A DNA stretch of 7,013 nucleotides from Desulfobacterales bacterium (GTDB lineage: Bacteria; Desulfobacterota; Desulfobacteria; Desulfobacterales; RPRI01): contig JAGVOC010000073.1 in NCBI GenBank assembly GCA_020052975.1, positions 1 through 7,013 on the forward strand, in the 5' to 3' direction. Both the position numbers and the translations under genes were made by a program. The notes under the pieces were generated by a model. The model ran no database searches and was not told where the DNA came from. It saw nothing but the letters and a program-made list of their open reading frames with translations. Positions 1 to 7,013 of this stretch are shown here, in pieces. Within the stretch, counting starts at the first letter, position 1. Each line of letters starts with the position of its first letter.

Positions 1-19
1 GGATTTTTTAACGTTCATC

Positions 20-97
20 TGTCATTCCGGCTTGTCCGGAATCTTTCCGATGGCTTCCAGGAAGGATTCCCGACGCGCTTCACTTGCGGGAATGACA
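20..97. repeat. Palindromic intergenic repeat, copy 1
   Basis: The ends are a perfect 9-bp inverted repeat, TGTCATTCC at 20-28 and GGAATGACA at 89-97. Inside are two further hairpins that share these arms: a 7-bp stem at 24-30/36-42 with loop CTTGT, and a 7-bp stem at 66-72/87-93 with a longer loop. It resembles the copy at 6779-6847 in having GTCATT/AATGAC ends, a CTTGW loop and CCGG-type stems. Dispersed palindromes of this general form are common between genes in many bacteria. I infer a REP- or MITE-like element. It encodes no protein. Confidence 0.8.
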
Positions 98-104
98 GTT
101 TTTT
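20..104 (+). terminator. Possible intrinsic terminator formed by repeat copy 1
   Basis: The long palindrome at 20-97 is followed almost at once by six T residues (99-104) and then an AT-rich stretch. This could stop transcription entering from a gene left of the window and insulate the operon that begins at 225. The stem is long and multi-branched, unlike a classic short GC hairpin, so terminator function is only inferred. Confidence 0.35.
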
Positions 105-224
105 AATTTTCTTGATCGTTTATACACAGACACTAATTAGCCTATGCACAGCATACCATCTCGGATAGCGTGTATTGCATGGAGATAAAACGATGAGAAA
201 GCAGATGAAGGAGACATAAGGAAC
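98..224 (+). other. Leader region upstream of the five-gene operon
   Basis: No substantial gene is seen here. The region holds a small hairpin-forming inverted repeat (TATGC at 143-147, GCATA at 151-155). It also holds two tiny ORFs, 179-196 (5 codons plus stop) and 193-219 (8 codons plus stop), which overlap by ATGA just ahead of the first gene. A promoter for the operon should lie here. TTGATC at 112-117 is the best -35-like hexamer, but no convincing -10 sits 16-18 bp downstream, so no promoter is assigned. Confidence 0.4.
208..222 (+). promoter_or_regulatory. Shine-Dalgarno region of the first propeller gene
   Basis: AAGGAG at 208-213 lies 11 nt before ATG 225, and AAGGA at 218-222 lies 5 nt before ATG 228. 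These motifs favour starting at 225 or 228 over the in-frame ATG at 291, which has no SD-like sequence before it. Confidence 0.55.
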
Positions 225-1292
225 ATGATGGTATATAAAAGTGCCCTCAACGCTATTTTATCAAAGGCCACGTACTATGCGCTATGCGCTATGCGTTGCA
301 CACTATGCTTTGTTATTGTTTTCTTTTTCGCGTGTGCGGCAAGATCCCCACTGCCGGAAAAGCCCTCAGGAGAATACATCTGGCCTCCGCCTCCTGAGAC
401 TCCAAGGATCAAATGGCTTACTCAGTGGTCAGACTCTCAGAACCTTAAAAAAGTTAATCCTCTCGATGTAGCGATAGGAGAGGCCGTGCTCCATGTGCTG
501 TTCAGGCCGAACGGAGTCGTTTCTGATGATGCAGGGAATGTGTATGTTGCAGATTCACAGCTCAAGAAAATTTTTGTCTTTGACATGGAAAAACAAAACC
601 TGCGATTCCTGGGCGAAGGAACTCTTAATGCACCCATAGGCCTTGCGATTGACAATAAGAGAGGAATTATATTTATTACAGATTCAGGAAAAGATGAGGT
701 ATATTGCCTTGATAAAAATACCGGAAAGAGTATTATGCCGATCAAAAAAACCGTGAAATTCAATAACCCTTCCGGCATAGTCTATGATGAACAGCGAGAG
801 AGACTGTATATATCCGATACCAAGAATCACATCATCAGGACGTTTGACAAAGAGGGGAACCCTCTTTCAACAATAGGGAAAAAGGGCAGGGATGATGGTG
901 AATTTAATAGCCCGAGTTATCTAGCCCTTGACAGAAATGGAAGGCTTTATGTAGTTGACACCCTGAATGGCAGGGTTCAGATATTTGACCCTGAAGGAAA
1001 GTTTGTGAAAAAATTCGGAAGATTTGGGAATACCCCCGGCTACTTCTCAAGGCCGACTGGCATAGGCGTGGATTCGGAAGGACATATCTACGTGGCGGAT
1101 GCCGCATTCAGCAACTTCCAGATTTTCAATGATAAGGGAAGGCTTCTTTTGTGGATTGGTAAGGCAGGGATAGGAGCAGGTGAGTTTTCTGTTCCCGCTG
1201 GGATTTATATAGACAGCCAGGACAAAATTTATGTCACTGATGTATTTAACAGGAGGGTACAGGTATTCCAATATCTGAAGGAAAAGAAATAA
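225..1292 (+). CDS. NHL-repeat six-bladed beta-propeller lipoprotein (first paralog)
   Basis: A 355-residue exported protein. The N-terminus has a long basic lead and a hydrophobic run (about residues 26-36) ending in FFFAC, so Cys37 is the likely lipidated residue. A proline-rich segment, YIWPPPPETPRIKW (51-64), is shared in form with the second paralog at 3208. Six NHL repeats follow, near residues 93-121, 134-163, 178-208, 227-255, 274-302 and 321-349. Each has the pattern hydrophobic-xP-x-G, D-x-x-G, hydrophobic-Y-V-x-D, then VQ-hydrophobic-F, so a closed six-bladed propeller is predicted. NHL propellers usually bind proteins or ligands. No catalytic signature is visible. It opens an apparent operon with a barrel and two cytochromes, which suggests a scaffold or assembly role at the outer membrane (inference). 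Odd: the signal region contains 7-bp tandem repeats. ATG 228, giving MVY as in the paralog, or ATG 291 are alternative starts. Confidence 0.88.
   Translation: MMVYKSALNAILSKATYYALCAMRCTLCFVIVFFFACAARSPLPEKPSGEYIWPPPPETPRIKWLTQWSDSQNLKKVNPLDVAIGEAVLHVLFRPNGVVSDDAGNVYVADSQLKKIFVFDMEKQNLRFLGEGTLNAPIGLAIDNKRGIIFITDSGKDEVYCLDKNTGKSIMPIKKTVKFNNPSGIVYDEQRERLYISDTKNHIIRTFDKEGNPLSTIGKKGRDDGEFNSPSYLALDRNGRLYVVDTLNGRVQIFDPEGKFVKKFGRFGNTPGYFSRPTGIGVDSEGHIYVADAAFSNFQIFNDKGRLLLWIGKAGIGAGEFSVPAGIYIDSQDKIYVTDVFNRRVQVFQYLKEKK
274..308 (+). repeat. Heptamer repeat tract in the signal-peptide coding region
   Basis: ACTATGC (274-280) is followed by two exact GCTATGC units (281-287, 288-294), with another ACTATGC at 302-308. 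Each unit contains an ATG, and the unit length is not a multiple of three. A related 7-bp tract (TATACGC twice) lies at 3212-3225, in the same part of the paralogous gene. Confidence 0.8.
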
Positions 1293-1317
1293 CGTGAACT
1301 GAAATGGGAATATAGTA

Positions 1318-3192
1318 TTGAACCAAAAAAAACGCATCTCTTTTATAATCATATGCCTTTTTTTTTTAATACCTCTCTTACCTGCAAAATCTGAAGCCCA
1401 GATGGCGCAAGCATCTTATGCGCATCTAAAAAAGTTCCGTCTAACAGGGCTAGTGGAGCTTTCATACCGTGATTACAGCGTTTCATCCACATATTATGGA
1501 AGGAAGACAGAAAGTGAATGGACAAGCTTCGAACAGCGCTACAAGCTTGGTCTGCAGGGGTATGTATACCATCCTAAACTCATGTACTTCAAAACAAGTG
1601 TAACATTCAGAAAAGAAACGATAGACAGGAAGTCAGTCGGTAATTATGATGTGAAAGATATCACTTATGATTTATCAGCTTCTTTCATGGCGACCAGACC
1701 TATATCGTTGAGTGTTTACGTTATAAAGACTGATTCTACGATAGAAGGGGCGGTAACTGGATCCTACGATTACATCTCAAATTTTTATGGGGCAAGTCTC
1801 TATTTCAGAAACAGAAAATACCCGGACATAGGACTTGAGTACAATCACTGGGATTATACGAGAGAGAGGGAAAAAGGCTTCAGGGTCATGGATGTACATC
1901 CGGGTGAGGGACTTATTATCGATAAGAAAAGAGTAAAGGAAAAGACAGATATCGACAGATTCAGCATACACGTGAACGGATCTCTGAAGACGATTAATAC
2001 AAATTATAACATAACCGGCTATATAACGGATTATGCAAGCCCGTTCAGGAATTACACGGGGGAAAATATCACCGCCAATACGTATACGGTAATCAGGAAA
2101 GAAAATCAGCTTGCAACATCCTTTCAATACTCTGATATAGATTTTTACAAACTGACGCGGTATATGGCCAGTGTAAGATTGTTCCCTATCGGCCGGCTTC
2201 ACCACAGATACGAATATGAATATCTCACCTCCGAAACCGGAAGCATTGAGACAGATTCACATACTATCAGTAATTATTTGCGCTACAGGTTTTCAAGGCT
2301 GATATTTGGTACCTCGCAATTACGCTACAGGCTCGGAAAACGGAACGGTGCCAGGGAGGATTCATATGATATTAACATAGGACTGAATTATGGCAGGCCG
2401 ATAAAGGATTTTGACTTTACCTCGTATTATAAGTTCAACCTCGGCAAGGATGAGAGACGCGGAGAATATAAGTATATGGAAAATTCTCTGGGCATCGGCC
2501 TGTCCACAGGGAAGTTCCGACTGGGGAAGATATATGCAACCTATGACATTGCACTCAGGAAATATGATTTCACTTTTCCCGTCAACGAAGATGATTTTTT
2601 TGATTTAGAATCTGAAGAATCATCTCCGGTATCAGCCAAAACTGATTCTCTTGAACACAAAATCAGAGTGGGGATAAACGGGAGGGGACCCGGCAGGGCT
2701 TACTGGAACATTGAGGCTGAAGGCAGATTTTTCGATTCGGAGAATCAGGGCCAGGAAGTAGTATTCTGGCTTGGAGAAGAACAGTGGGCAGAGGAAATCA
2801 GGCACTATACCCTCACTGGAGATATCGGCTACCCTATCGGACAGAGGGGACTGGCTACCGTGAGCGCAAGTTATCTAACAGGACAAACCAATTCGGAGGA
2901 TGTGGAAAAATATTATTACGAAGTCCGTCTCAATTATCGCCTGTTAAGAAACTTGAACTGTATCGCATGGTGGAGGGAGGAATGGCGAAACAAAGGCTGG
3001 TGGGCCGGAAGGCCTACTGCCGAAACCTTAAGGAGAACTTATGGATGGAAGACCAGGGAATATCAGGTGGAAGTCTATTATTCATTGCACAGGATAAGAA
3101 TTTCTCTTGAATATAAAGTGTACAGGTTGGAGGAGGGTCCTCTCAGTTCAGACTATAAACGTCTTTATCTGAGATTGAGCAGGACATTTTAA
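1318..3192 (+). CDS. Outer-membrane beta-barrel protein, putative porin of a cytochrome/NHL cluster
   Basis: A 624-residue protein starting at TTG. No in-frame ATG or GTG start fits better, because GTG 1294 runs straight into a stop, and the TTG start yields a good Sec signal: KKR, a hydrophobic stretch to about residue 23, then SEA before Q28. The mature chain is rich in Tyr, Arg, Ser and Thr, with repeated alternating polar/hydrophobic segments typical of transmembrane beta strands. It ends in LYLRLSRTF, and a C-terminal Phe is the usual recognition signal for barrel insertion. An acidic segment (424-434, NEDDFFDLESEE minus its first residue) probably belongs to a surface loop. Six Trp residues cluster at 551-577. 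No CXXCH motif is present. Its size suggests a large barrel, comparable to the porin of Geobacter or MtrB-type conduits, but I cannot assign it to a named family. It sits between two propeller paralogs, 25 nt after the first. Confidence 0.8.
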   Translation: MNQKKRISFIIICLFFLIPLLPAKSEAQMAQASYAHLKKFRLTGLVELSYRDYSVSSTYYGRKTESEWTSFEQRYKLGLQGYVYHPKLMYFKTSVTFRKETIDRKSVGNYDVKDITYDLSASFMATRPISLSVYVIKTDSTIEGAVTGSYDYISNFYGASLYFRNRKYPDIGLEYNHWDYTREREKGFRVMDVHPGEGLIIDKKRVKEKTDIDRFSIHVNGSLKTINTNYNITGYITDYASPFRNYTGENITANTYTVIRKENQLATSFQYSDIDFYKLTRYMASVRLFPIGRLHHRYEYEYLTSETGSIETDSHTISNYLRYRFSRLIFGTSQLRYRLGKRNGAREDSYDINIGLNYGRPIKDFDFTSYYKFNLGKDERRGEYKYMENSLGIGLSTGKFRLGKIYATYDIALRKYDFTFPVNEDDFFDLESEESSPVSAKTDSLEHKIRVGINGRGPGRAYWNIEAEGRFFDSENQGQEVVFWLGEEQWAEEIRHYTLTGDIGYPIGQRGLATVSASYLTGQTNSEDVEKYYYEVRLNYRLLRNLNCIAWWREEWRNKGWWAGRPTAETLRRTYGWKTREYQVEVYYSLHRIRISLEYKVYRLEEGPLSSDYKRLYLRLSRTF

Positions 3193-3207
3193 CCCTTGCA
3201 CTATACT

Positions 3208-4254
3208 ATGGTATACGCTATACGCTCTATATTTCTATGTATTGCGCTCATTACATGTGTTGGTTGTGCTACTGATGGATTGGAAACACAGAACACGGAA
3301 GCCGTCATTCACGACACAGAACCTGTCTGGCCTCCCCTACCTCAAACAACAAGGATTCAATATGTAAGAAGCATTTCCGGACCATCTGATATCGGGATGA
3401 AGAAATCATGGCTCAGGAAAACAATGGACACTCTAATGGGGAAAGACGAAACAGTTGAAATGTTGCTCAGGCCATACGGGGTTTTTGCCGATGCTGCAAG
3501 GATTTACGTAACAGACCCCGGAACCCGACTTCTCCATGTTTTTGACATGAAAGCAAGAAAATATCTGAAAATTAAACAAGCTGATAAAAAGGAGTTGCTA
3601 TCTCCAATCGGGGTGGCAGTTGATATAAACGGGGATATATATCTTTCCGATTCTGTATTGAAGCGGATATTTCTCTTCAACAGAGAGGGGAAATATCTGA
3701 AGGACATAGGATCAGATGAGGTATTTATCAGGCCTGCAGGCATAGCGCTTGATGGAGAAAGACTGTATGTGGTTGATACACACGGTCATAGGATCGGCGT
3801 ATTTTCAAAGACAGACGGTTCTTTCCTCTTCAGTTTTGGCAAAGATGGCAGTAGAAAAGGAGATTTTCATTATCCTACGAATATTTTTATCGGTAAAGAC
3901 GGGCTTCTCTATATAGCAGACTCGATGAATTTCAGGGTGCAGATTTTTGACAGGGATGGTCACTTCATTTCAACGTTCGGCAAACATGGCGATGGTTCAG
4001 GGGATTTTTCAAAACCCAGAGGGATAGCTGTGGATTCTGATGGTCATGTGTATGTAGTTGATGCGCTTTTTGATACTGTCCAGGTATTTGATAAGGATGG
4101 CAGGCTTCTTCTTGCTTTTGGAAAGACAGGTCGAGAAAAAGGAGAAATGATCCTTCCCGCAGGTCTGTTTATTGATGGAGAGGATAGAATTTATGCAGCG
4201 GATTCGTATAATAATAGAGTACAGATATTTCAGTATATGAAAAACAAACAATGA
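3208..4254 (+). CDS. NHL-repeat six-bladed beta-propeller lipoprotein (second paralog)
   Basis: A 348-residue exported protein from ATG 3208. TTG 3196 would add four residues and has an AGGA at 3181-3184, so the start is uncertain. ATG 3208 was chosen because it gives MVY, as in the first paralog at 228, and a compact signal with Arg6. CVGC makes Cys20 the likely lipid attachment site. The segment PVWPPLPQTTRIQY echoes the proline-rich motif of the first paralog. It is followed by a linker that is longer than in that protein. Six NHL repeats lie near residues 87-113, 131-159, 174-199, 221-248, 267-294 and 314-342. The final blade and tail (RVQIFQYMKNK) closely match RVQVFQYLKEK of the first protein, so the two arose by duplication. 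It overlaps the next cytochrome gene by 4 nt (ATGA), implying translational coupling. The role in cytochrome export or conduit assembly is inferred from context. Confidence 0.87.
   Translation: MVYAIRSIFLCIALITCVGCATDGLETQNTEAVIHDTEPVWPPLPQTTRIQYVRSISGPSDIGMKKSWLRKTMDTLMGKDETVEMLLRPYGVFADAARIYVTDPGTRLLHVFDMKARKYLKIKQADKKELLSPIGVAVDINGDIYLSDSVLKRIFLFNREGKYLKDIGSDEVFIRPAGIALDGERLYVVDTHGHRIGVFSKTDGSFLFSFGKDGSRKGDFHYPTNIFIGKDGLLYIADSMNFRVQIFDRDGHFISTFGKHGDGSGDFSKPRGIAVDSDGHVYVVDALFDTVQVFDKDGRLLLAFGKTGREKGEMILPAGLFIDGEDRIYAADSYNNRVQIFQYMKNKQ
3212..3225 (+). repeat. Short heptamer repeat (TATACGC x2)
   Basis: Two exact 7-bp units lie side by side just after ATG 3208, inside the signal-peptide codons. 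The preceding bases (ACTATACTATGG) are of similar composition. It is the counterpart of the GCTATGC tract at 274-308. Confidence 0.65.
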
Positions 4255-4988
4255 ACGGTAAACGGACAAAAAAATTTTTCATTCTGTATTTTTCATTTTG
4301 TATTTTAATGGTAATTCCCTTTTTAGTTCAGGCCGGGATACGTGATACAAAACATAACCTGTCTGTTTCAGGCATGGGAGATGTGAAAGCGGTAAGTGAA
4401 ACGCAAATTTGCATCTTCTGCCATACCCCTCATAACGCGTCTCCTGCCCATCCCCTCTGGAATCATGAGCTCAGTGCGGTTGTAAATTATATAAACTACG
4501 CGAGTCCCACCTTGCAGTCTTATGCGTCTGAGGCAGAAGCGCCACCAATCGATGGGCACTCAAAACTCTGTTTGAGCTGCCATGATGGAACTGTGGCAAT
4601 CGGTTCGATTGTGAGCAGATTTGATGAAATTATGATGGTGACAGTTCCAGGCGTCATCGATGACTCAGGGAAACTTATTGGAGGACCGGGATATCTCGGG
4701 ACAGACCTTTCAGGAGGACATCCGATCTCCATTGTTTTTGATGAAGCGCTGGCGAATAAGAGAAACTCGGCAGACCCTCCTCTTTCCCGCCTTAACTGGC
4801 CTATAAACGACCCAGATATAAAACTTCATCCAACACAGGGGAGGTACGGAGTCCAGTGCACATCATGTCATGACCCCCATGGCAGCAAGGCAGCAGGAGA
4901 GTGGCCTCCGTTCTGGCATAAAGCAACACACGATGAAGTCTGTATGGTATGTCACGAGGCAATACCGCCGGGGGATATAGAATGGTAA
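4251..4988 (+). CDS. Secreted tetraheme c-type cytochrome, OmcE-like candidate
   Basis: A 245-residue protein with a Sec signal (NGKRTKK, hydrophobic core, VQA before Gly29) and no lipobox. Four heme sites are visible: CIFCH 54-58, CLSCH 107-111, CTSCH 203-207 and CMVCH 231-235. Ten further histidines in the mature chain (35, 61, 67, 72, 103, 157, 193, 210, 223, 227) could serve as distal ligands. The order TKHNLS, CHTPHNA, PLWNH, KLCLSCHDGT, DLSGGHPIS, C-SCHDPHG and a last CXXCH is the one I recall for the tetraheme family that includes Geobacter OmcE, whose subunits polymerise into extracellular heme filaments. The length also fits. That assignment is from memory of the family and needs alignment. 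The start overlaps the preceding stop (ATGA). No SD is evident, so translation probably depends on coupling. Related tetraheme proteins that do not form filaments are the main alternative. Confidence 0.88.
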   Translation: MNGKRTKKFFILYFSFCILMVIPFLVQAGIRDTKHNLSVSGMGDVKAVSETQICIFCHTPHNASPAHPLWNHELSAVVNYINYASPTLQSYASEAEAPPIDGHSKLCLSCHDGTVAIGSIVSRFDEIMMVTVPGVIDDSGKLIGGPGYLGTDLSGGHPISIVFDEALANKRNSADPPLSRLNWPINDPDIKLHPTQGRYGVQCTSCHDPHGSKAAGEWPPFWHKATHDEVCMVCHEAIPPGDIEW

Positions 4989-4998
4989 AAATGCAATT

Positions 4999-5075
4999 AA
5001 AATATTTTCCCTCTTCTCTAAAGAGCCCTCATATGCCACCCCTCTTTTATAAAGAGGGGTCAGGGGAGATTTTTT
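4999..5075 (+). repeat. Structured palindromic element between the two cytochrome genes
   Basis: The core is a perfect 9-bp hairpin, CCCCTCTTT (5039-5047) with AAAGAGGGG (5051-5059) and loop TAT. A weaker hairpin pairs CTCTT 5011-5015 with AAGAG 5021-5025. Outer arms at 4999-5011 and 5063-5075 can also pair as RNA: A/U pairs, one mismatch, then AUUUUCCC with GGGGAGAU using two G-U pairs. The C-rich/G-rich form resembles dispersed C5T/AG5-type intergenic repeats that I know from Nitrospirota and Deltaproteobacteria genomes. Its 3' arm contains the ribosome-binding site of the next gene. It may also tune the ratio of the two cytochromes (inference). Confidence 0.7.
5063..5068 (+). promoter_or_regulatory. 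Shine-Dalgarno of the octaheme cytochrome gene
   Basis: GGGGAG ends 8 nt before ATG 5077, a good position, and decides for that start over TTG 5074. It lies within the arm that can pair with 5004-5011, so it may be masked in the folded mRNA. Confidence 0.6.
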
Positions 5076-5076
5076 G

Positions 5077-6204
5077 ATGAATATAAAATCAATTATAAAA
5101 GCTATATTAGTATTATTTGTTATTGGGATACTTTTTATCTCTCCCCACCCGCTTTATTCAGACTCCGGCAAGGGGCGTTCTCATGGCGACAGGAGTAAGC
5201 TTCTTAAGGGTTGTGCAAGCTGTCATAAAGGTCATGGCGTATTTAACACTCCCATGCTTTCGGAAAGGAAAGAGTTTGTATGCTTCCGGTGTCACGGACA
5301 CAGTATTTATGCAGAAAATGCAAAGAGAGCCGGAGATATTGCAGAGGATGTCAGGACAACAAATATTCAAAGGGAATTCGAGAAACCATATCGTCATCCG
5401 ATTGAAAAAATAGGGATTCACAGGTACGGAGAAGTACTGCCTGAGACAGATCCATCCATGCCAAGGCATTCAGCATGCGGAGACTGCCACCACCATCACT
5501 ATGTGAAAAAAGAAAATAAAATGTCGGGTGTTAGGGGCACAAACAGAGACGGATTAAGGGTGCGGATAACTTCTGAATATGAACTCTGCTTTAATTGTCA
5601 CTCGTATAGCGCAAACCTTCCTGCAGACCAAACCAATAAAGCAGAGATTTTTAATATCTCGAACCCTTCCTTTCATCCAATCGTCACCCCGGGGAAAAAT
5701 AGCGATGTGCCAAGCCTTGTTCCTCCTTTAACGACTTCGAGTCTTATACAATGTACTGACTGCCACAATAATGACGACGCTGCTGGTCCAAAAGGTCCGC
5801 ATGGCTCAACCTATAGATATATATTAGCCAAAAACTATACGACAATTGACAGTGCAGAGGGTCCTTTTCAATATGAACTCTGTTATAGCTGCCACCGAAG
5901 GAGCAGCATTCTCAGCGATGAAAGCTTTCCGTTACATGATTTGCATATTTCGACAGTCGGTACCTCATGCAGAACATGCCATAATCCTCACGGGAGTATT
6001 CAATATACACATATGATAGAATTTAATAGAGCATCTGTTATGCCATCAAACAGCGGGCAACTTGTGTACATGGATTCCGGGAGTAGGGCCGGGCAATGTT
6101 TCCTTAACTGTCATGAGAAGGATCATGATCCGGCCGTGTATCCAGGATCTGTTCCAACTCAGGTTCCGTCACGATATCCGTCACGATATCCTTTAAGGAA
6201 GTAA
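5077..6204 (+). CDS. Secreted octaheme c-type cytochrome with paired CXXCH domains (one site CX3CH)
   Basis: A 375-residue protein with a Sec signal (KSIIK, hydrophobic core to about residue 22, probable cleavage after LYS near residue 28) and no lipobox. Seven CXXCH sites lie at 46-50, 69-73, 134-138, 171-175, 226-230, 269-273 and 298-302. An eighth, CFLNCH at 341-346, has three residues between the cysteines. They form four consecutive pairs, as expected for doubled-CXXCH (paired CXXCH) domains. Another 16 or so histidines outside the motifs and the signal peptide can supply distal ligands, including H37-type N-terminal ones and a run of four His at 138-141 that overlaps the third heme site. 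The C-terminal tail is Pro/Tyr/Arg-rich (PSRYPSRYPLRK) and follows a 12-bp DNA duplication. It lies 88 nt after the tetraheme gene and is probably an electron-transfer partner in the periplasm or at the cell surface. The exact redox partner is unknown. Confidence 0.88.
   Translation: MNIKSIIKAILVLFVIGILFISPHPLYSDSGKGRSHGDRSKLLKGCASCHKGHGVFNTPMLSERKEFVCFRCHGHSIYAENAKRAGDIAEDVRTTNIQREFEKPYRHPIEKIGIHRYGEVLPETDPSMPRHSACGDCHHHHYVKKENKMSGVRGTNRDGLRVRITSEYELCFNCHSYSANLPADQTNKAEIFNISNPSFHPIVTPGKNSDVPSLVPPLTTSSLIQCTDCHNNDDAAGPKGPHGSTYRYILAKNYTTIDSAEGPFQYELCYSCHRRSSILSDESFPLHDLHISTVGTSCRTCHNPHGSIQYTHMIEFNRASVMPSNSGQLVYMDSGSRAGQCFLNCHEKDHDPAVYPGSVPTQVPSRYPSRYPLRK
6166..6189 (+). repeat. 12-bp tandem duplication at the end of the octaheme gene
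   Basis: CCGTCACGATAT occurs twice in direct succession (6166-6177 and 6178-6189), followed by CC. It encodes the doubled PSRY of the C-terminal tail and keeps the reading frame. Confidence 0.85.
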
Positions 6205-6242
6205 GATCAATCAGCATTCCAGGCAACAGACAGAAAAATATT
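6205..6242. other. Convergent intergenic gap
   Basis: This is the 38-bp gap between the stop of the octaheme gene and the stop of the minus-strand RidA gene. Only weak A/T-rich sequence is seen, and no convincing hairpin with a T-run on either strand. Confidence 0.5.
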
Positions 6243-6701
6243 TTACGAAACCTCGAAGATACACTCGATTTCCACCGGCGCATTCAAGGGAAGCACGTTT
6301 ACTCCTACTGCAGAGCGGGCATGCCTGCCCGCCTCGCCGAATATCTCGAAGAGGAGATCCGAAGCAGCGTTCAGAACCTTCGGTTGTTCTGTGAAACCGG
6401 GTGAAGAGGCAACATATCCGGTTATCCTGATGCACCGGGTAATTTTATTGAGGCTTCCCGTATATGCTTTAAGTACTGAAAGGGCGTTGATTGCCACGGT
6501 CCTTGCATCGTCTCTCGCCTCGTCCAGGGTTATATTTTCTCCGACCCTTCCGGTCCTTGTGAGCAGGCCGTCTCTGAAAGGAAGAATTCCGCTGAGGTAT
6601 AAGAGGTTGCCTGCCTGGGTGCAGGGGATGTAGGAACCCAAAGGCGCCGGTGTTACAGGAAGCTCAATGCCGAGTTCTCTTATTTTCTCTTCTGGCGACA
6701 T
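6243..6701 (-). CDS. RidA family protein (YjgF/YER057c/UK114 superfamily), long variant
   Basis: A complete 152-residue protein, longer than the roughly 128-residue classic RidA. It fits the subgroup opening with MSPEEKIRELGIELP and containing SYIPCTQAGNLLYLSG (23-38), TGYVASSPGFTEQPKVLN (94-111) and GRHARSAVGVNVLPLNAP (125-142). Arg129 in HARSAV corresponds to the carboxylate-binding Arg of RidA. Classic RidA hydrolyses reactive enamine/imine intermediates such as 2-aminoacrylate. The activity of this longer subgroup is, to my knowledge, less established, so imine deaminase function is not asserted. It is cytoplasmic, with no signal peptide. There is no clear SD before the ATG. It converges on the cytochrome operon and lies downstream of the LeuC-like gene on the same strand, separated by 179 bp that include a repeat. 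Confidence 0.92.
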   Translation of the reverse strand: MSPEEKIRELGIELPVTPAPLGSYIPCTQAGNLLYLSGILPFRDGLLTRTGRVGENITLDEARDDARTVAINALSVLKAYTGSLNKITRCIRITGYVASSPGFTEQPKVLNAASDLLFEIFGEAGRHARSAVGVNVLPLNAPVEIECIFEVS

Positions 6702-6778
6702 GGCATACTAAAAATAATCATCCAATAATACAAAAGTCAAAATTTACCTGAACGTTGCATACAATACATTGAGAAATC

Positions 6779-6847
6779 GTCATTGCCCGACTTGATCGGG
6801 CAATCCAGAGAAAGGTGCTGGATTATCCGGTCAAGCCGGATAATGAC
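6779..6847. repeat. Palindromic intergenic repeat, copy 2
   Basis: The outer ends GTCATT (6779-6784) and AATGAC (6842-6847) are complementary. Within are two perfect 9-bp hairpins: 6782-6790/6796-6804 with loop CTTGA, and 6822-6830/6836-6844 with loop TCAAG, which is the reverse complement of the first loop. ATCCAG at 6803-6808 pairs with CTGGAT at 6818-6823. The two stems differ in sequence (GCCCGA versus ATCCGG type) but are each fully paired. It belongs to the same family as 20-97. No T-run follows on either strand, so it is a poor intrinsic terminator. Confidence 0.85.
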
Positions 6848-6880
6848 AAAATTGAGCATTACACAACTTTCAATGGTTTG

Positions 6881-7013
6881 TTAAAGCCCAAGCTCTTCCG
6901 GCGTCCCGATCCTGCCAAGGACAGCGGAAGCTGCTGCAACTGCCGGATTCGACAGATAGACCTCACTCCCGGGGTGGCCCATTCTCCCTACAAAATTCCT
7001 GTTCGTCGTTGCA
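6881..7013 (-). CDS. leuC: 3-isopropylmalate dehydratase large subunit (LeuC/aconitase family), C-terminal fragment
   Basis: Partial gene: the 5' part lies beyond the right edge, and the stop is TTA at 6881-6883 read on the minus strand. The 43 visible residues include [31 protein letters not shown] and the ending TPEELGL. NRNFxGRMG and the PAVAAASA block are hallmarks of the C-terminal part of isopropylmalate isomerase and homoaconitase large subunits. In LeuC this region includes Arg residues near the active site; the [4Fe-4S]-ligating cysteines lie upstream and are not visible. The role is interconversion of 2- and 3-isopropylmalate in leucine synthesis, with LeuD. A homoaconitase-type relative cannot be excluded from so short a piece. 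Confidence 0.88.

Follow-up and report, generated by a model that had tools for sequence, protein, structure and literature searches.

Our analysis of a 7,013-nucleotide stretch of DNA from a Desulfobacterales bacterium (contig JAGVOC010000073.1, positions 1 to 7,013; hereafter, the window) identifies a real and conserved module of five genes, which encode two NHL-repeat propellers (NHL1 and NHL2), a large barrel, a tetraheme c-type cytochrome (TETRA) and a larger multiheme c-type cytochrome (OCTA). Judged by homology and gene neighborhood, the five genes probably constitute a module for extracellular electron transfer. Because the neighbors of these genes in relatives are genes for MtrA-like cytochromes, OmcE-like cytochromes and isomerases, we suggest, as a proposal that we regard as evenly balanced, that they could form the outer-membrane core of an OmcE-type extracellular electron transfer (nanowire) system, in which TETRA is more likely the base of the wire than the wire itself. 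The genes, all on the + strand, are:

NHL1, 225..1292, + strand: NHL-repeat beta-propeller, likely an outer-membrane lipoprotein (Pfam PF01436, E 1.9e-35)
Barrel, 1318..3192, + strand: TTG start, predicted 28-stranded outer-membrane beta-barrel without plug domain
NHL2, 3208..4254, + strand: second NHL-repeat propeller, likely a lipoprotein (Pfam PF01436, E 3.7e-28)
TETRA, 4251..4988, + strand: tetraheme cytochrome c similar to OmcE, assigned to an adaptor lineage, four CXXCH motifs
OCTA, 5077..6204, + strand: multiheme cytochrome c with seven CXXCH motifs and one CX3CH motif and a basic, Pro-rich tail

The coordinates, strand and gene order agree with the initial annotation of the window and, with the ATG starts used, the intergenic gaps are 25, 15, -4 and 88 bp, the start of TETRA overlapping the end of NHL2 by 4 bases. 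NHL2 may start at a TTG at 3196, where the frame is open, or, more likely, at the ATG at 3208, and OCTA may start at a TTG at 5074 in the open frame or at the ATG at 5077. The initial annotation had described the products as two NHL lipoproteins, a large barrel, a tetraheme and an octaheme cytochrome, with neither cytochrome carrying a lipobox, and these descriptions hold with one qualification: the eighth motif of OCTA is a non-canonical CX3CH (CFLNCH, window 6097-6114), and the protein is octaheme only if this motif binds heme. The motif is present, always as C-x-L-x-C-H, in 120/120 OCTA homologues (the best 120 among 1,271, counting that of the window), which indicates that the site is under selection, and we suggest that it would bind heme.

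Signal peptides were assessed by eye, without a predictor, and lipoboxes with a custom permissive pattern. NHL1 has a lipobox-like Cys37 followed by the motif WPPPPETPRIKW. Among the aligned proteins of the close relatives described below (type A), a lipobox-like Cys is present in 13/13 NHL1 and 12/13 NHL2 proteins and is shortly followed by a WP..P...RI.W/Y-like motif in 13/13 and 12/13, respectively; in NHL1 alone the motif reads WP..P...RI.W/F. As controls, the lipobox pattern matched 0/13 barrels, 0/13 octahemes and 2/13 tetraheme signal regions (L006 and L052). The window's own NHL lipoboxes, FFAC and CVGC, are atypical. The signal regions of the window's TETRA and OCTA contain no lipobox, and the window contains no gene for a cytochrome lipoprotein of the MtrC/OmcB type.

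A lack of conserved gene order in relatives had been named beforehand as one of the results that would speak against the initial annotation; the order is present in Nitrospirota loci. A search with the barrel protein returned 45 proteins including the window's own, and every one with a named organism is from Nitrospirota. A profile built from 40 barrels matched 89 of 395 Nitrospirota genomes at E <= 0.001, 10 of these below 1e-100, and 8 loci were found in the genome collection. We refer to the 14 loci with a close barrel, from 12 genomes of Nitrospirota, as type A. NHL1, barrel, NHL2 and TETRA are consecutive in 12 of these 14 loci, the exceptions being L003, where the barrel is cut short, and L004, where TETRA is preceded by an inserted CARDB/beta-helix gene; OCTA is next after TETRA in 12/12 loci that continue. 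Across 12 loci compared, the arrangement is repeated with 27-67% identity in the barrel and 50-82% in the other four proteins, which speaks against a chance grouping, and, in the two-copy genomes compared (G135 and G005), the copies are 26-27% identical in the barrel and 50-58% in the other genes. The distance matrices of the five genes over 13 loci correlate with r 0.65-0.92, as expected of genes that travel together. In L046 the nearest relative varies from gene to gene.

The type A loci also have a steady upstream neighbor: a gene for an MtrA-like cytochrome lies directly upstream of NHL1 in 12 of the 14 loci. The other two are at contig edges: L002 opens partway through NHL1, and 254 bp precede NHL1 in L004, whose genome carries an MtrA-like gene at the border of a different contig (45% identity, E 3e-72). 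MtrA itself (6r2q_A) is matched by the L001 copy with E 1e-13, and the DmsE decaheme family TIGR03508 is matched by the L001 and L047 copies (E 2e-27 and E 3e-31, both under the NCBI cut-off). The upstream 224 bp of the window contain no CXXCH in any frame and no MtrA-like gene; since the MtrA-like gene in L051 ends 236 bp before NHL1, the window may stop just short of such a gene on its left side. A parvulin isomerase was found in 0/14 type A loci in the stretches read.

Further observations on these loci concern individual copies and a second cytochrome type. In G005 one barrel copy is split over two overlapping frames (L005:2541-4471) and the MtrA-like gene is broken by stop codons (L005:691-1173), reflecting either decay or assembly error; a second copy of the module, with a single-frame barrel, is on another contig (L049). 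Two 12-heme cytochromes of ~270-330 aa are encoded in tandem, upstream of the gene for the MtrA-like cytochrome, in L006, L046, L047, L048, L049, L050 and L051. The members of the pair resemble each other, the second has a lipobox-like stretch in L047, and the L006 12-heme cytochrome has weak matches to small tetraheme cytochromes.

More distant loci place the module in a larger gene set. A profile of OCTA gave 65 matches below 1e-60 in the same 395 genomes, and a barrel match lies upstream, on the same strand and within 9 kb, in 44 of the 65. Among 34 remoter loci, 14 of them picked by weak barrel matches and 20 by OCTA matches, an NHL gene is present in all 34, a detectable barrel in 31 and an OCTA domain in 24. 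A parvulin-type isomerase gene is found on either strand in 28 (the L055 copy has the Pfam domains Rotamase and SurA_N), and a separate OmcE-like tetraheme gene lies upstream in 24, three of them on the opposite strand (rows read by eye). L109 and L110 have the full order MtrA-like, NHL, OmcE-like, isomerase, barrel, NHL2, TETRA, OCTA; the window has this order minus the OmcE-like and isomerase genes and, inside its edges, minus the MtrA-like gene. In Candidatus Sumerlaeota, the phylum of L008, an OCTA match with E <= 1e-20 is present in 12/40 genomes, and an NHL gene lies directly before the OCTA-bearing gene in 7/7 loci read, with the barrel detected in 4/7. An NHL gene is directly 5' of the OCTA-bearing unit in most loci read. 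These neighbors lend support to the initial proposal of an electron conduit or nanowire system as a frame, although not to its assignment of TETRA as the wire itself. In nine loci (L098, L101-L105, L108, L113 and L114), a further OmcE-like tetraheme gene follows OCTA and is itself followed by a frame of 839-942 aa without heme motifs.

TETRA is similar to OmcE over nearly its full length (PDB 7tfs, E 2.1e-24, query residues 18-236 of 245) and to PDB 9yuq (E 1.2e-18), a 16-chain "putative multiheme cytochrome c" that provides a second OmcE-family structure besides 7tfs. Eight His columns, the number needed by four bis-His hemes, are conserved in 35/35 TETRA-side rows and 22/22 free and PDB rows; a further His, His72, is present in 30/35 TETRA-side rows versus 3/22 others. 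The likeness to OmcE over the length of the protein with all eight His, the occurrence of TETRA as a separate and apparently exported protein in the window, and five of ten type A genomes (drafts) in which no other OmcE-like gene was found are all in keeping with what the initial annotation had proposed, i.e. that the barrel and propellers export TETRA, which polymerizes as the wire and is fed by OCTA. The trees speak against this. In a first tree of 40 rows, a 97/89 branch has 14 TETRA and eight of nine fused N-domains on one side and, on the other, OmcE, 9yuq and 15 free OmcE-like proteins. A second tree of 57 rows, its TETRA and free rows assigned by the position of the gene, splits at a 99/99 branch into 29 TETRA plus 6 fused N-domains on one side and 20 free OmcE-like proteins with OmcE and 9yuq on the other, without exception among the rows used. 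Because TETRA groups with the N-domains of fused tetraheme-octaheme proteins, apart from OmcE, and not with the proven filament formers, it would not belong to the wire lineage. Moreover, five of ten type A genomes (G001, G006, G135, G148 and G288) hold a separate OmcE-like tetraheme, and these five form one clade (100/99) on the OmcE side. The fusion of TETRA to OCTA elsewhere, described below, also counts against it. In total, we consider it improbable that TETRA polymerizes as a wire, and this part of the initial annotation is probably wrong.

In G006, G135 and G148, the free OmcE-like gene shares a strand with the first cytochrome gene of the module and lies ~6-9 kb upstream of it. Given its presence elsewhere in five of ten genomes, the wire gene seems to have been relocated, and not lost, in at least some type A genomes. 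LuxR-type (GerE) regulator genes adjoin the free OmcE-like gene in two of them (L090:5683-6336 and L088:13191-13844), and L089 and L091 have frames of the same size at the equivalent place, the family being known for the L090 and L088 copies.

The relation between TETRA and OCTA further suggests what TETRA does if not forming the wire. The two are fused as one polypeptide in 9 of the 34 remoter loci and in protein P0226, the OCTA part of which is 62% identical to the window's OCTA, and are fused in 0/14 type A loci. That they are alternately split and fused while the place beside the NHL gene is kept argues that they may work as one electron path. The C-terminal tail of OCTA (6150-6204) is Pro-rich and Arg/Lys-rich, with a similar tail in several, not all, of 13 type A OCTA proteins; it could possibly contact the membrane, the barrel or peptidoglycan.

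Starting from gene content, gene order, homology, fusion and the two-lineage tree, all of which were directly observed, we infer complex formation, topology, the direction of electron flow and wire docking as follows: (i) the barrel would be a wide, plugless gate in the outer membrane, (ii) NHL1 and NHL2 would be outer-membrane lipoprotein propellers flanking or capping the barrel on one or both sides, (iii) TETRA and OCTA would be the halves of a 12-heme cytochrome that is a single protein elsewhere, and (iv) electrons would pass from periplasmic cytochromes (MtrA-like and, in some relatives, 12-heme) to OCTA, on to TETRA at or through the barrel and then out, or in the reverse direction. In this model, TETRA keeps the heme-ligand set of OmcE and would offer an OmcE-like face that seats the first wire subunit, encoded by the separate OmcE-like gene; where no wire exists, this surface would face another acceptor. 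In the full clusters, the parvulin isomerase may aid the maturation of secreted cytochromes. More generally, and more tentatively than the nanowire-core proposal, we suggest that the OmcE-type fold could exist in two lineages, one forming wires and the other a non-polymerizing "socket" tied to an octaheme cytochrome at a propeller-flanked barrel, with the window encoding the socket. If true, such clusters would reveal the way in which cytochrome nanowires are attached to the outer membrane and receive their charge from it.

The barrel gene has no Pfam or NCBIfam match. The AlphaFold2 model of its product has 28 strands over residues 39-623 (mean pLDDT 84.8, pTM 0.68) and no plug domain, and the inside/outside alternation of residues is above that in 200/200 within-strand shuffles (0/200 as high). 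With so wide a lumen and no plug, the barrel would have to house an occupant, which could be an MtrA-like protein, OCTA/TETRA, or a cytochrome in transit during secretion. If MtrA-like, the module could be a conduit of the MtrAB kind in which the MtrA-like protein threads the barrel, OCTA and TETRA are terminal or surface cytochromes, and the propellers only stabilize the complex, with no wire involved. The large plugless barrel and the MtrA-like gene upstream in relatives are shared with MtrCAB and other porin-cytochrome systems, and the initial annotation, which had set the module apart from MtrCAB by the missing lipobox on the cytochromes and the flanking propellers, was right about both features and has to be modified for the MtrA-like gene directly upstream in 12 of 14 relatives. 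However, the barrel profile has no sequence match among PDB chains up to E 10, MtrB included, and the window barrel is not recognizably MtrB by sequence; in fold comparisons the Z score of MtrB ties with those of TonB-dependent receptors; the 28 modelled strands compare with 26 in MtrB according to the accessible part of PMC12133095; the window's OCTA and TETRA have no lipobox, and two NHL lipoproteins flank a barrel that has no cytochrome lipoprotein with it in the window. An MtrAB-kind conduit would also leave unexplained the recurrent free OmcE-like and isomerase genes at the same loci. We therefore find this alternative unlikely, while giving it more weight than TETRA as the wire.

Several findings weigh against the module being the core of a nanowire system. 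The window itself contains no isomerase gene, no free OmcE-like gene and no MtrA-like gene, with only 224 bp available upstream. An MtrA-like gene is present in only 13 of the 34 remoter loci, and for 21 of the 65 strong OCTA matches no barrel match lies upstream within 9 kb on the same strand. The TETRA-specific residues are scattered along the protein and do not mark a single face, and the ninth fused N-domain in the first tree (L064, on a very long branch) falls on the free side. The fold matches of the barrel are unspecific, as seen in the tie mentioned above, and the predicted model of OCTA (pLDDT 47) is useless. Finally, the cytochromes of a related deltaproteobacterial operon are not expressed during metal respiration in studies cited in the accessible part of PMC5539420, and for this reason electron flow out of the cell should not be taken for granted.

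The Nitrospirota clusters belong, by composition, to the same kind as the osc and oet clusters. Of the Osc proteins, OscH is a prolyl isomerase, OscEFG are channel-like and OscD is propeller-like. The osc (OmcS companion) cluster of Geobacter sulfurreducens, reported by Shen et al. in 2025, has nanowire-type cytochrome gene(s) beside companion proteins and further cytochromes, and the companions have been proposed to function in folding (OscH), secretion (OscE, F and G) and morphology (OscD), as described in the accessible parts of PMC13194489 and PMC12977616. Many of the remoter Nitrospirota loci share this mix of propeller, isomerase, barrel and cytochromes, whereas the wire-like gene encodes an OmcE-type tetraheme cytochrome in Nitrospirota and an OmcS-type hexaheme cytochrome in osc, and no TETRA-OCTA pair is described in the accessible text of the two papers. 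The window, unlike osc, lacks the isomerase and the wire gene, a comparison made by composition.

A core operon in SEEP-SRB1 and Desulfuromonadales relatives encodes a six-bladed propeller, 16- and 26-heme cytochromes and a peptidyl-prolyl isomerase (PMC5539420, accessible part), and OetABI is an associated barrel conduit paired with nanowire-type cytochromes in sulfate reducers that are partners of anaerobic methanotrophic archaea (ANME) and in Geobacter (PMC10553843, accessible part). As far as these texts go, the oet cassette resembles the Nitrospirota clusters in having an outer-membrane barrel, periplasmic and outer cytochromes, a propeller, an isomerase and nanowire-type cytochromes; it differs in having 16- and 26-heme cytochromes and a cytochrome lipoprotein (OetB), whereas the window has tetra- and octaheme cytochromes without lipobox. 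This likeness was judged by composition. What the window itself shares with osc and oet is propellers and a channel-like outer-membrane protein beside multiheme cytochromes. In Geoalkalibacter ferrihydriticus, a single locus (Ga0056053_02426-02431) combines homologues of MtoA and OmcE with two NHL proteins, a combination similar to that described here; the accessible part of PMC12016550 mentions no barrel, isomerase or octaheme for this locus, which is from another group of organisms. OmcE (7tfs) and 9yuq share with TETRA the near full-length similarity and the eight His, and differ in lying on the opposite side of the 99/99 branch and in TETRA residues such as His72. In the literature searched, as far as its accessible parts extend, we found no description of an OmcE-like adaptor joined to an octaheme cytochrome or of the reduced type A form.

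It is also conceivable, though very unlikely and the least probable of the alternatives, that the five genes encode a periplasmic or outer-membrane redox module outside extracellular electron transfer, e.g. for nitrogen, sulfur or selenium oxyanions, with the barrel serving as a pore for solutes. Propellers of the NHL type occur widely in unrelated contexts, and Pfam and NCBIfam scans of the window's five genes identified no catalytic domain that would indicate a substrate. However, the steady company of OmcE-like and MtrA-like cytochromes argues against such a function and, less strongly given that most unclassified frames are unannotated, so does the fact that no catalytic enzyme was recognized in the loci.

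For the nanowire-core proposal, the wider interest lies in anchoring. How nanowires are anchored in membranes and coupled to the redox chain of the cell was described as an open need in the accessible part of a 2025 review (PMC12307469), and the conserved set of four to six genes for an OmcE-like domain, an octaheme cytochrome, a barrel and two propellers provides concrete, testable candidates for such an anchor. In uncultured Nitrospirota and Sumerlaeota, for whose barrel no family model exists, the same set may serve as a marker of extracellular electron transfer.

The window has three further features:

Hairpin CCCCTCTTTTATAAAGAGGGG, 5039..5059, no strand assigned: perfect 21-nt hairpin inside the 88-bp gap between TETRA and OCTA, 5' of the OCTA start
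RidA-type gene, 6243-6701, opposite strand: downstream of OCTA
Apparent end of an aconitase-family gene, 6884-7012, opposite strand: E 5e-6, just under the Pfam cut-off

Because the RidA-type and aconitase-like genes are on the other strand, the gene set ends at 6204. The hairpin is followed by TCAGGGGAGATTTTTTG, and its pattern has one other site among the 117 loci searched, in genome G288, where it was seen in two overlapping loci. Both ends of the window contain intergenic palindromic repeats (20-105 and 6781-6850) of the GTCATTCC/GGAATGAC and ATTATCCGG/CCGGATAAT types, which were read by eye and are absent from the repeat-search output; they may be small mobile repeats.

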